A DNA stretch of 64,000 nucleotides from an uncultured Paracoccaceae bacterium (lineage in GTDB: Bacteria > Pseudomonadota > Alphaproteobacteria > Rhodobacterales > Rhodobacteraceae): assembly GCA_947493335.1 (NCBI GenBank), contig CANLQO010000006.1, positions 1 to 64,000 on the forward strand, written 5' to 3'. The translations under genes and the position numbers were made by a program. Positions 45,836-49,904 of this stretch are shown piece after piece (within the stretch, counting starts at the first letter, position 1; every line of letters starts with the position of its first letter). Below the pieces are notes generated by a model. It did no database searches. It was not told where the DNA came from and saw only the letters and a list, made by a program, of their open reading frames with translations.

Positions 45836-46336
45836 CTGAAAGCCCCGGTTTTGAGCGAAGGCTAGCAGAAATGCTGACTTGGACCACCGGCAAAACACCA
45901 ATGCGCTCGTATCCACTCGGTTCGACGGGGCCGCCCGCCGACGTCCAGGATTTCGTCGTGCCCCCGCATCCGGCCCTCGCGCCCTGATGACGGCCCCTCT
46001 TTCAGACAAGTAGTCAGGTGCATCGCCGCCCTCTGGGGCAATGCCGCCTGAGCGTCTGCCACAAATGATTTAAACTACCCCAATCAATCCGCCTCTCGCA
46101 TCTTTGCTCTTGGTACGCATCAAACCCGCCCCCAATGCGCCAAGTTTCTTGCGGAATCCCCGGCGGGGGTCTACATGACCCCTATGAAACAGGTTTTCGA
46201 CATGGATGATCGCGCCCGCCTGCCGTGGCGCTTTTACGGTGCAAGCTGCACCATTCTGGCACATCTATGACGCTTGCGGCCCCGGCCGCTGCCCCGTTCT
46301 GTCGCTTCTTCACACATAACCAACGGGAGAGGACCC
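45836..46336. other. Region before leuC, possible 31-codon upstream ORF
   Basis: No protein gene is clear here. An ORF at 46175-46270 (MTPMKQVFDMDDRARLPWRF, then YGASCTILAHL) has GGGGGT before its start, but has only three leucines, so it does not look like a leucine attenuator peptide. I saw no good terminator/antiterminator pair. Confidence 0.3.
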
Positions 46337-47743
46337 ATGTCCCCCAAAACGCTTTACGATAAAATCTGGGATGCCCATGTGGCGCATGAGGCAGAGGATG
46401 GCACCTGCCTGCTGTATATCGACCGCCATCTTGTGCACGAGGTGACGAGCCCGCAAGCCTTTGAAGGGCTGCGCATGGCTGGCCGTCAGGTCCGTCGCCC
46501 CGACCAGACCATCGCGGTCCCTGACCACAACGTGCCCACCACTGCGGGCCGTGAAGATCCTGCGAACATGACCGAAGACAGCGCGATTCAGGTCGCCGCA
46601 CTCGACAAGAACGCCAAGGATTTCGGCATCCACTACTACCCCGTCTCTGACGTCCGTCAGGGCATCGTGCATATTGTCGGCCCCGAACAGGGCTGGACGC
46701 TCCCCGGCATGACCGTCGTCTGCGGCGACAGCCACACCGCCACCCATGGCGCATTTGGCGCTTTGGCCCACGGGATCGGCACATCCGAAGTCGAACACGT
46801 GCTGGCCACCCAGACACTGATTCAGAAGAAATCCAAGAACATGAAGGTCGAGATCACCGGCAAGCTGCGCCCCGGTGTCACCGCCAAGGACATCACGCTT
46901 TCCGTGATCGGTGCGACCGGCACCGCAGGCGGCACCGGCTATGTGATCGAATATTGCGGCGAAGCCATCCGCGATCTGTCGATGGAAGGGCGCATGACCG
47001 TCTGCAACATGGCGATCGAAGGTGGCGCGCGTGCGGGTCTGATCGCCCCTGATGAAAAGACCTTTGAATACTGCACGGGCCGCCCGCATGCGCCAAAAGG
47101 CGCACAGTGGGAAGCCGCGCTTGCCTGGTGGAAAACCCTCTATTCCGATGACGATGCCCATTGGGATCAGGTCATCACGCTGAAGGGCGAAGACATCGCG
47201 CCGGTTGTCACTTGGGGCACCTCGCCCGAGGATGTGCTGCCAATCACCGCAAAAGTCCCCGCAAGTTCTGATTTTGAAGGTGGTAAGGTCGGTGCCGCAC
47301 AAAGGAGCCTTGAATATATGGACCTGACCCCCGGCACACCTTTGTCGGATATCGAAATCGACACCGTCTTTATCGGGTCCTGCACCAATGGCCGGATTGA
47401 AGACCTGCGTGCCGCCGCCGAAATCCTCAAAGGCAAAAAGAAAAAGGATGGGCTGCGGGCGATGGTCGTGCCCGGCTCAGGCCTTGTGCGCGCACAGGCC
47501 GAAGAAGAAGGGCTGGCCGATATTTTCAAAGAGGCGGGTTTTGAATGGCGTCTTGCGGGCTGTTCCATGTGTCTGGCCATGAACCCCGATCAGCTTGCCC
47601 CGGGTGAACGCTGTGCCGCGACCTCTAACCGCAATTTTGAGGGCCGTCAGGGCCGCGGCGGACGCACCCACCTGATGTCGCCTGCCATGGCGGCGGCAGC
47701 GGCCATCACGGGTAAGCTCACCGATGTGCGGGAGATGATGTAA
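46337..47743 (+). CDS. leuC: 3-isopropylmalate dehydratase large subunit
   Basis: LeuC, 468 residues, which with LeuD isomerises 2- to 3-isopropylmalate in leucine synthesis using a 4Fe-4S cluster. The cluster cysteines are in [20 protein letters not shown] and [15 protein letters not shown]. The family signature [20 protein letters not shown] is present. GGGAGAGG precedes the ATG at 46337. Three tandem Tat-type genes and a small ORF separate it from leuD. Confidence 0.97.
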
Positions 47744-47746
47744 GGC

Positions 47747-48232
47747 ATGACCCTAAAGCGACGCGGATTTCTGGCTATGCTGGGGGCGGCAATGTCTGCC
47801 CCTCTGATGCCCGTGGCTGGGGCTGCGGCCCCGTCACGCACCGCGTTCGCAGTGGCTGTCGCTCATGCCCAGCGGTTCCCGGTGATCAGTGTCGCGGGGC
47901 TGGCTAAGCATGGCAAGATCAGCCCGTCCGAGGCGGATGCCATGATCAAACGCCTCGCGCTCGAAGGAAAGGTCAAGCTTGTTGGCCCGTCACGCTCAGG
48001 CGGGGTGCGCGCCGCGAGCCGCATATTGACCAACGATCCTTGGGGCATTGCCCGCACCACAAGTGACCGGCAGGCAGCCGCACGGATTGAAAAGGCCAAA
48101 ACGCAGGATCGCACTGCGTCGACAAAGGCGCATGCCAAACCCCGGGCAGGCGATGTTGCCCCGTGGCTCGCACATCTGCACGATCTTTGCCGCGCACGCG
48201 GCATGACCCTCAGCCCACGGTGTTTCGCATGA
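47747..48232 (+). CDS. Tat-signal, HTH-like protein, tandem paralogue 1
   Basis: A 161-residue protein I cannot name. It begins with a twin-arginine-type signal (LKRRGFLAMLGAAMSAPLMP), so the rest is probably exported folded. Residues about 35-95 look like a winged helix: ISVAGLAKHGKISPSEADAM, IKRLALEGKVKLVG, then a strand-like RSGGVRAASRIL. A basic linker follows, then AHLHDLCRARGMTLSPRC with two cysteines eleven apart. It starts three bases after the leuC stop and overlaps paralogue 2 by 4 bases, so it is in the leu operon. Confidence 0.75.
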   Translation: MTLKRRGFLAMLGAAMSAPLMPVAGAAAPSRTAFAVAVAHAQRFPVISVAGLAKHGKISPSEADAMIKRLALEGKVKLVGPSRSGGVRAASRILTNDPWGIARTTSDRQAAARIEKAKTQDRTASTKAHAKPRAGDVAPWLAHLHDLCRARGMTLSPRCFA

Positions 48233-48705
48233 AGCGGCGCGGGTTTCTTGGGTTGCTCGGTGGGGCCATTGCGGCACCGCTTTTGCCGTCTGTTGGCGGC
48301 GCTGCGACCGTCACAAGCTACAACCGCTACACCTATGGGCTGGCGGTATTCCACGCCCGCACACGCGCCCATATCAGCGCGCGGGGGCTGTCGCATTGTC
48401 TTAAGGTTTCTGTGCCGCAGGCAGAGGCGATGATTGCCGAAATGTCCTCTAGCGGAATGGTCCGGCCCATCTTTGGCGCGCCCGGCGGGCATGTGCGCGC
48501 AGTCAGCAACATACTCAAACCTGACATGTGGGGGCTGGAACGCTCTGCCCGTCAGGCCCGCGCCCGGACACGGCGCGCCCGGTTCGAGGCGCGGCAGGGC
48601 AGCATGAAGACCGATGCGATGATGGCCCATCTGCACCAGATGTGCCGCGACTATGGCCTGACCCTTAGCCCGCGTTGCAACGTCATGACAGGAGGTGCCG
48701 CATGA
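48229..48705 (+). CDS. Tat-signal, HTH-like protein, tandem paralogue 2
   Basis: A 158-residue paralogue of the genes on both sides: signal MKRRGFLGLLGGAIAAPLLP, then AVFHARTRAHISARGLSHCL, PQAEAMIAEMSSSGMVRPIF and RAVSNIL in the same order. The C terminus MMAHLHQMCRDYGLTLSPRC keeps both cysteines. An export signal on a domain that resembles a DNA-binding fold is odd; it may serve protein contact. Start at 48229 (ATGA overlap with paralogue 1) gives the RR signal; the open frame from 48163 does not. Confidence 0.75.
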   Translation: MKRRGFLGLLGGAIAAPLLPSVGGAATVTSYNRYTYGLAVFHARTRAHISARGLSHCLKVSVPQAEAMIAEMSSSGMVRPIFGAPGGHVRAVSNILKPDMWGLERSARQARARTRRARFEARQGSMKTDAMMAHLHQMCRDYGLTLSPRCNVMTGGAA

Positions 48706-49160
48706 AGCGCCGCAGTTTTTTGGGGATGCTGGGTGCCGCAGTTGCGACGCCCTTCCTTCCGCAAGGTGCTGCCGCCCGTGCCGCAAAGGCCGCGCCCTAT
48801 TCGGCCGCCACTGTGCATGCAGCGATCATGCACGCGCAAACCCGCGCGGTCTTTAGCGTCTGGGGTCTTGCGCGTGCATTGAACGTCCCGGTCGAAGCGG
48901 CAGAAGCCCTGATGCAGGATTTGGCAAAGCGCGGTGTTCTGGGGCCATTGCAGGGCACCACCTTTGGTGGCCGCTGGGCCAGCAGCAAGATCATGACGCA
49001 CGATGCCATTGTCGCGCGGATGGCGCAGCGTCGCCGCACTGCCACGCTGCATAAAAAGGCGCAGCCGGACGCCGCCGAAGCCACGGATCTTACGGCCATG
49101 ATGGCGCATTTGCGGACGATGGCCGTTAACTATTTCGCGGCCAAAGGGGGCGCGACGTGA
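48702..49160 (+). CDS. Tat-signal, HTH-like protein, tandem paralogue 3
   Basis: A 152-residue third copy: MKRRSFLGMLGAAVATPFLP, then AAIMHAQTRAVFSVWGLARA, LNVPVEAAEALMQDLAKRGV and RWASSKI. The C-terminal AHLRTMAVNYFAAKG has lost both cysteines found in copies 1 and 2. Overlaps copy 2 by 4 bases (ATGA); AGGAGG at 48691-48696 also serves the start. Its TGA shares a base with the start of the 45-codon ORF that leads to leuD. Confidence 0.75.
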   Translation: MKRRSFLGMLGAAVATPFLPQGAAARAAKAAPYSAATVHAAIMHAQTRAVFSVWGLARALNVPVEAAEALMQDLAKRGVLGPLQGTTFGGRWASSKIMTHDAIVARMAQRRRTATLHKKAQPDAAEATDLTAMMAHLRTMAVNYFAAKGGAT

Positions 49161-49298: not shown

Positions 49299-49904
49299 AT
49301 GGACAAGTTCACCACGCTCAGCGGCATCGCCGCGCCTCTGCCATTGGTCAATATTGATACCGATATGATCATTCCCAAGCAGTTCCTGAAGACGATCAAG
49401 CGGTCTGGTCTGGGCGTGAACCTCTTTGACGAGATGCGGTATGACGATGATCGGGCCGAGATTGCCGATTTTGTCCTGAACCAGCCACAGTATCGCGAGG
49501 CGCAGATATTGGTGGCCGGTGACAACTTTGGCTGCGGCTCCAGCCGTGAACATGCCCCTTGGGCGATCAAGGATTTTGGCATCACCTGTGTGATCGCGCC
49601 CAGCTTTGCCGATATCTTTTACAACAACTGCTTCAAGAACGGCATTCTTCCGATTGCCCTGCCACAAGAGCAGGTTGATGTACTTATGAAAGACGCAGAA
49701 AAGGGCTCTAACGCCCGGATCGAAGTGGATCTCGCGGCGCAGACGATCACCAGCTCTGATGGTGATGTGTTCAGCTTTGAGGTCGACAGCTTCAAGAAGC
49801 ATTGCCTGATGAATGGCCTTGATGATATCGGCCTGACGATGGAAAAGGCGGCAAGTATCGACACGTTCGAGGCGTCCGCTGCCCAGGCCCGCCCCTGGGT
49901 CTGA
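49299..49904 (+). CDS. leuD: 3-isopropylmalate dehydratase small subunit
   Basis: LeuD, 201 residues, the swivel-domain partner of LeuC. Diagnostic parts: [40 protein letters not shown] (substrate-binding serines) and [25 protein letters not shown] at 49285-49289 serves the ATG. It lies 1.6 kb from leuC because of the inserted genes. Confidence 0.97.

Follow-up and report, generated by a model that had tools for sequence, protein, structure and literature searches.

Three tandem genes inside the leucine operon of the window (the whole stretch of 64,000 nucleotides that was analyzed) encode members of an unnamed family that, judging by sequence, belongs to the Rhodobacteraceae. Our preferred reading, to which we give slightly less than an even chance, is that these proteins are exported by the Tat system, that their core is a winged helix resembling the gamma domain of FtsK but without its DNA-reading residues, and that they act as basic binding modules in the cell envelope. 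In the trio this variant of a known DNA-binding fold likely has another job, in the envelope.

Organization of the Trio

All features given here for the window lie on the + strand. Two operon partners, both named by eye, flank the trio: leuC, coding for the large subunit of 3-isopropylmalate dehydratase, upstream (46337..47743; the open reading frame covers 46274-47743 and the start was set at MSPKTLYD, that is, at 46337), and leuD, coding for the small subunit, downstream (49299..49904). Copy 1 (47747..48232, 161 aa) comprises a predicted twin-arginine signal, a predicted winged helix, a basic linker and a tail with a C-x10-C pair. Copy 2 (48229..48705, 158 aa) was described from its open reading frame, its sequence, its homologues and an AlphaFold2 model, and copy 3 (48702..49160) has 152 aa and no cysteine. 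All three are stand-alone open reading frames without the FtsK motor domain, and copies 2 and 3 share 47% and 36% identity with copy 1, respectively. They are thus three tandem paralogues between leuC and leuD, and the sequence-only reading, which had described them as such, is confirmed with corrections of detail. The ATGA overlaps that it had noted are found between copies 1 and 2 and between copies 2 and 3, but copy 1 starts 3 bases past the leuC stop, without overlap; copy 3 and leuD are 138 bases apart. The RRxFL starts are as described (MTLKRRGFL in copy 1, MKRRGFL in copy 2 and MKRRSFL in copy 3), and so is the C-x10-C pair of copies 1 (C148/C159, codons at 48188..48223) and 2 (C139/C150, codons at 48643..48678), absent from copy 3. 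Of the AHLH-type ends attributed to the three proteins, those of copies 1 and 2 are exact and copy 3 has AHLR instead. Scans of the three full proteins against Pfam and NCBIfam gave no match above cut-off. Because homologues exist and dN/dS is 0.10-0.30 across four genomes, the trio is more than a product of chance.

A Predicted Winged-Helix Core Akin to the Gamma Domain of FtsK

The core occupies about residues 28-92 in copy 1 (47828..48022) and 29-95 in copy 2 (48313..48513). That of copy 3 (48777..48992) was placed by alignment with the family core rather than from a model of its own, and it matches the core-only profile A5 with an E-value of 4.9e-22. The AlphaFold2 models of copy 1 (mae2322fe0a95) and copy 2 (m5b7b6dd74969) predict the helix-helix-helix-strand-strand order of a winged helix, with mean pLDDT per ten residues over residues 31-80 of 92-94 in copy 1 and 91-96 in copy 2, and of 78 and 81, respectively, in the wing (residues 81-90). 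These predictions agree with the winged-helix-like core that had been suspected behind the signal, and we regard a winged helix in copies 1 and 2 as very probable. Both models fit solved winged helices in fold searches, and Foldseek returned zero matches at E<=0.001. When shapes were compared, with Z differences below 1 taken as ties, a ribosomal chain and Z-alpha tied with FtsK gamma or led it, so that fold searches alone do not pick out FtsK gamma.

The A5 profile was built from the cores of 46 members, the signal being left out. With it, 67 matches at E<=1e-5 were obtained in 295 genomes of the taxonomic family. Family members make up the best 37, spread over 18 genomes, and the remaining 30 sit in frames of 524-1170 aa. 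All 12 of the frames inspected turned out to be the C-terminal gamma domain of FtsK; among the other 18, one was confirmed by Pfam FtsK_gamma and 17 were judged by frame length and profile span. When the 14 family-bearing genomes were searched with the core profile at E<=1, FtsK was the top non-family match in 13, the exception (G353) having a ROK-like protein (recognized by eye) ahead of FtsK. In the reverse search with Pfam FtsK_gamma, FtsK came first in 14/14 genomes; 11 more matches reached E<=0.1, of which 10 were family members and one was a MarR_2 protein. The best family member of these 14 genomes reached 22.6 bits with this model, under its gathering cut-off of 30.6; as for the window, copy 3 was matched at E 0.58 and copies 1 and 2 were not listed at E<=1.

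Among the 46 cores, FtsK_gamma matched more (22/46 at E<=1) than any other Pfam family, including MarR_2 (12/46) and Rrf2 (10/46), and the best single E-values were 1e-5 for MarR_2, 3.8e-5 for FtsK_gamma and 0.015 for Rrf2. The two best matches among 177,635 PDB sequences were FtsK gamma (best E 1.1e-4, vs. 2.9e-4 for the best eS25 chain); eS25 and Z-alpha domains resemble the family in shape only, with weaker sequence support than FtsK gamma. Profile-profile comparison scored the family core at 55.8 with FtsK gamma, 32.5 with MarR and 24.5 with Rrf2, FtsK gamma and MarR scoring 30.2 with each other; with 21 leu-site-like cores alone the gap was narrower (42.1 for FtsK gamma vs. 35.1 for MarR). 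The MarR_2 model matched more than 100 winged helices in 13 of the 14 genomes, with no family member among the matches listed. Regulators of the MarR and Rrf2 types belong to the same fold class as the family core and, to our knowledge, carry no export signal; as nearest kin they were rejected on the profile-profile scores and the MarR_2 search. The profile search that had been suggested as a check on the core thus leads, by matches within genomes and among PDB sequences, to FtsK gamma (Pfam PF09397), which we consider quite likely to be its closest relative among the winged helices compared. The winged-helix fold is common to both, whereas the family proteins have no motor domain and carry a twin-arginine signal in front.

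Extended to the whole class, the core-profile search gave a match at E<=1e-4 in at least 196 of 289 genomes. Of 29 loci from other families, 22 fit the FtsK-gamma pattern and none is among the 94 non-FtsK cores collected; four short frames were inspected, and two were FtsK and two were other winged helices. No RR-bearing member from outside the taxonomic family was found among the matches listed for the 289 genomes of the class.

Loss of the DNA-Reading Residues

According to passages of PMC2533119, recognition of KOPS by E. coli FtsK involves N1296, R1300 and E1303, and passages of PMC2680272 describe a KOPS-blind variant of FtsK in which E1306 is altered too. These four residues are present in 2/46, 2/46, 0/46 and 0/46 of the family cores, respectively, against 44/44, 32/44, 35/44 and 43/44 of the alphaproteobacterial FtsK proteins, and 42 of the 46 family cores retain none of them. 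The wing lysine is likewise found in 44/44 FtsK vs. 0/46 family cores. An alanine of helix 3, the helix of the KOPS residues, occurs in 44/44 FtsK and in 44/46 family cores. In these alignments the scaffold is kept and the KOPS-reading residues are lost.

The predicted recognition helix has no K/R in 22/46 cores, with a mean of 0.67 K/R vs. 1.9 in FtsK gamma, and the mean charge of the core is +3.8 in the family vs. +1.3 in FtsK gamma. Because the whole core is still basic, it may bind nucleic acids unspecifically. As for the earlier description of the core as DNA-binding-like, the fold itself is upheld and DNA binding is not, the DNA-reading residues of FtsK gamma being gone.

A Predicted Tat Signal

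No part of the family proteins is better conserved than the Tat-type signal. In copy 1 the predicted signal covers residues 1-28 (47747..47830) and consists of RRGFL and a hydrophobic stretch (best 12-residue KD 1.65), modelled with a low pLDDT of 58-63. The predicted signal of copy 2, residues 1-26 (48229..48306), reads MKRRGFLGLLGGAIAAPLLP..., with a best 12-residue KD of 1.88 and a weak match to Pfam TAT_signal (E 0.32), and that of copy 3, residues 1-28 (48702..48785), reads MKRRSFLGMLGAAVATPFLP..., with a best KD of 1.63. Over the family, the KD of the hydrophobic stretch has a mean of 1.66 and a minimum of 1.08, to be compared with 1.63-1.88 in the window copies.

Of 94 distinct non-FtsK cores that were collected, 89 have RR just upstream; the five without it comprise four other winged-helix proteins and a fragment truncated by the locus edge. 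Since the profile that brought in many of the 89 members contains the signal itself, a fairer test is given by the eight members that the core profile alone was first to detect, and RR is present in 8/8 of these. Among 87 proteins of at least 100 aa, RRx[FLM] occurs in 84 (all three window copies have RRxFL), A-x-A in the expected place in 68, and an acidic residue within 22 residues past RR in 15, and a further stretch resembling a membrane span was found in 0/87. As a general rule, when a positive N-terminus precedes a single hydrophobic stretch, the remainder is predicted to lie outside. TatC is encoded in this genome. We consider Tat export of the trio likely, although the incomplete occurrence of A-x-A, the acidic residues after RR and the weak TAT_signal match speak against it. 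With known Tat substrates bearing RRxFL signals, the trio shares the twin arginines, a moderate hydrophobic stretch and the presence of TatC. The winged helix is nevertheless unusual as a passenger, and none was found among Tat passengers in the literature searched.

Charge and Cysteines

The mature proteins of the trio are basic, with a pI of 11.3 in copy 1, 11.0 in copy 2 and 10.7 in copy 3. In the model of copy 2, an Arg-rich helix (residues 103-124) follows the wing, and then comes a short C-terminal helix pair. The median mature pI is 10.6 at loci sorted as leu-site (n=42) vs. 6.1 at other sites (n=41); since most of the members found elsewhere than at the leu site are not basic, such a binding module cannot describe the family in general. 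The C-terminal C-x10-C pair recurs in 16 of 85 collected family proteins shorter than 250 aa, and copy 2 has one extra cysteine (C57). A disulfide is not general in the family, since 32 of 89 members have no mature cysteine and 23 have one; the parity of cysteine numbers over the family was uninformative.

Selection and Age of the Copies

The trio is under purifying selection. In six pairs of four genomes, dN/dS ranged over 0.21-0.30 in copy 1, 0.10-0.22 in copy 2 and 0.17-0.27 in copy 3, leuC and leuD having values of 0.03-0.11, and the core was the most constrained part of every copy. A tree was built from 46 rows, and in it every copy of the window clusters with its same-position counterparts from three further genomes; support is 100/98 for the copy-1 group, 99/96 for the copy-2 group and 98/99 for the copy-3 group, which has one row more. 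The duplications are old, because copies at the same position cluster across genomes; a recent tandem duplication was rejected, as copies of the same type are closer across genomes than the copies within one genome. The copy-1 and copy-3 groups do not include the single copies of the other genomes, and four genomes retain only the copy-3 type at the leu site. The gene order is not fixed, since the copy-1 type stands second in another genus. The family gene can also decay, as two relatives carry an in-frame stop in the matched stretch (G096:C34, at the leu site, and G376:C17).

Genomic Sites of the Family

Searches collected 71 homologues starting from copy 2 and 205 starting from a 36-sequence profile. 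Copy 2 had a match in 14 of the 295 genomes of the taxonomic family and none in the other 281. In the stretches taken around these 14 matches, both leuC and leuD are present in seven and leuC alone in one; five matches are at other sites, and the one in G023 was dropped as false, since it lies in the frame of a ribosomal L21-like protein (recognized by eye). A contig scan gave 18 loci, in 16 of which leuC and leuD flank 1 to 4 family copies, so that the leuC-X-leuD synteny that had been proposed for verification is found in relatives. Each of G304 and G305, genomes of the same genus, has three copies. Away from leu genes the scan gave two loci, the first followed by a pnp-like gene and the second at a contig end, with the same genes upstream.

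The family is present at several unrelated sites, where the neighboring genes were recognized by eye. A threonine-dehydratase-like neighborhood was seen in four genomes, with both argG and msrA in two; an EttA-like gene adjoins a member in three genomes, and hisZ is nearby in two; pnp is nearby in two genomes, a third being alike upstream; the S10 region was seen in one and purB in one. The common factor of these sites seems to be housekeeping expression rather than leucine, and because the family also stands beside unrelated housekeeping genes, its link with leucine is probably only one of shared expression. Given these sites, the trio does not look like a system of the leucine operon. In six genomes, including this one (G000 C2, 134 aa), a member lies directly downstream of a membrane protein. 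The six loci are L045:3294-4405 (G000 C2), L067, L068, L071, L073 and L077. The membrane protein of L045 has a C-terminal OmpR-type Trans_reg_C domain (E 7.9e-4, under cut-off), and the other five look alike by eye; a membrane regulator with an exported winged-helix partner is possible at this second site.

Overlaps and Fusions with Neighboring Genes

At the single-copy loci measured, the family gene overlaps leuD in 9 of 10 and is fused to it in the tenth, and because of the overlap at nine loci the translation of leuD is probably coupled to that of the family gene. The overlap is of 4, 14 or 17 bases (L030, L031, L033-L039). At two leu-site loci (L028:6001-6996 and L061, the latter in G371), the family gene lacks a stop codon and its frame continues into leuD, for a total of 331 aa, the fused leuD retaining its own Shine-Dalgarno sequence and ATG. 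At another locus (L102 in G003), the frame of a member extends into that of a GNAT acetyltransferase (PF00583, E 1.6e-10), for which a possible internal start has a weak ribosome site only. LeuD and GNAT work in the cytoplasm, and because these fusion partners need it, predicted export is partly disfavored. The good Shine-Dalgarno sequence at the internal start of leuD could reconcile the LeuD fusion with export. Export may not extend to every member of the family; otherwise the fused form would be made in minor amounts next to the products of internal starts.

Possible Role and Alternative Explanations

In the mechanism that we propose, the trio would be co-translated with leuC, the leucine operon likely just supplying steady expression. 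The folded protein would be exported by Tat and its signal cleaved, in copies 1 and 2 the C-x10-C pair would form a disulfide, and the Arg-rich helix after the wing would bind a polyanionic or protein partner, our naming of which is a guess. It is also conceivable, if rather doubtful, that FtsK gamma was captured behind a Tat signal within Rhodobacteraceae and stripped of its KOPS residues, and that the resulting exported, duplicating family handles periplasmic DNA or another polyanion. Were this capture true, it would give an envelope role to a fold otherwise known for intracellular DNA reading.

One alternative is that the proteins are winged-helix regulators or translation-coupled accessories working in the cytoplasm, or active there before export, with RR as a membrane tether or a removal signal. 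The winged helix predicted for copies 1 and 2, the core more positive than that of FtsK gamma, the leuD overlap or fusion at all ten single-copy loci measured, and the in-frame fusions to LeuD in two leu-site relatives and to GNAT in one genome would all suit it; we nevertheless find it unlikely, because RR precedes nearly all non-FtsK cores and the few exceptions are explained, the recognition helix has no K/R in almost half of the cores and has lost the KOPS contacts, and the order of positive N-terminus and hydrophobic stretch predicts the remainder to be outside. The genes might otherwise be dispensable, fast-evolving hitchhikers beside highly expressed core genes, without fixed role, as could be thought from their patchy presence (37 matches in 18/295 genomes), their many sites, their variable tails, their evolution faster than that of leuC and leuD, and the internal stops of two relatives. 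Such hitchhikers are improbable given the dN/dS of 0.10-0.30 with the core most constrained, and given the retention of orthologous copies over several genera.

Still less probable is a signaling pair in which the exported winged helix would be the periplasmic accessory partner of a membrane-bound winged-helix regulator: the six genomes with a family gene directly downstream of a membrane protein, and the weak OmpR-type domain of the one such protein that was scanned, would fit, but no such neighbor is found at other sites, leuC-leuD included, within the stretches inspected. We give the least credit to a role in the leucine pathway, e.g., in the assembly or regulation of the LeuCD isomerase. 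The leuC-X-leuD arrangement in 16 of 18 loci, mostly with tight spacing, and the LeuD fusions of two genomes speak for such a role, and against it are the members near argG, EttA-like, hisZ, pnp, topA and ribosomal genes (recognized by eye) and the 281 of 295 genomes without a match to copy 2; as the main reading, a leucine-specific role is ruled against by these other sites.

No description of an exported FtsK-gamma-like family was found in the open-licence literature searched, including the passages available from PMC9764985, PMC2533119 and PMC2680272. If export is true, the trio would show clearly that a domain for reading DNA can be transferred to the other side of the membrane and still be maintained by selection: its DNA-reading residues have been erased, and the closest relative alive today, FtsK gamma, is encoded by the same genomes. 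The repurposing of a DNA-binding fold could then be tested directly, a small folded Tat passenger would be at hand for study, and several conserved hypothetical genes within core operons of marine bacteria would be explained.

Other Members of the Family

In one genus, an array of five diverged copies on the same strand lies near topA (L065:4090-6631 and L066:3609-6141). The same two loci (in G120 and G390) contain members of 222 aa whose end is GNAT-like by eye, without a Pfam match. Five members (L072, L074, L075, L080 and L101) have another cysteine pair, 47-51 residues apart across the core. Placed on the winged-helix model, this pair, unlike C-x10-C, might connect the first strand with the end of the wing.
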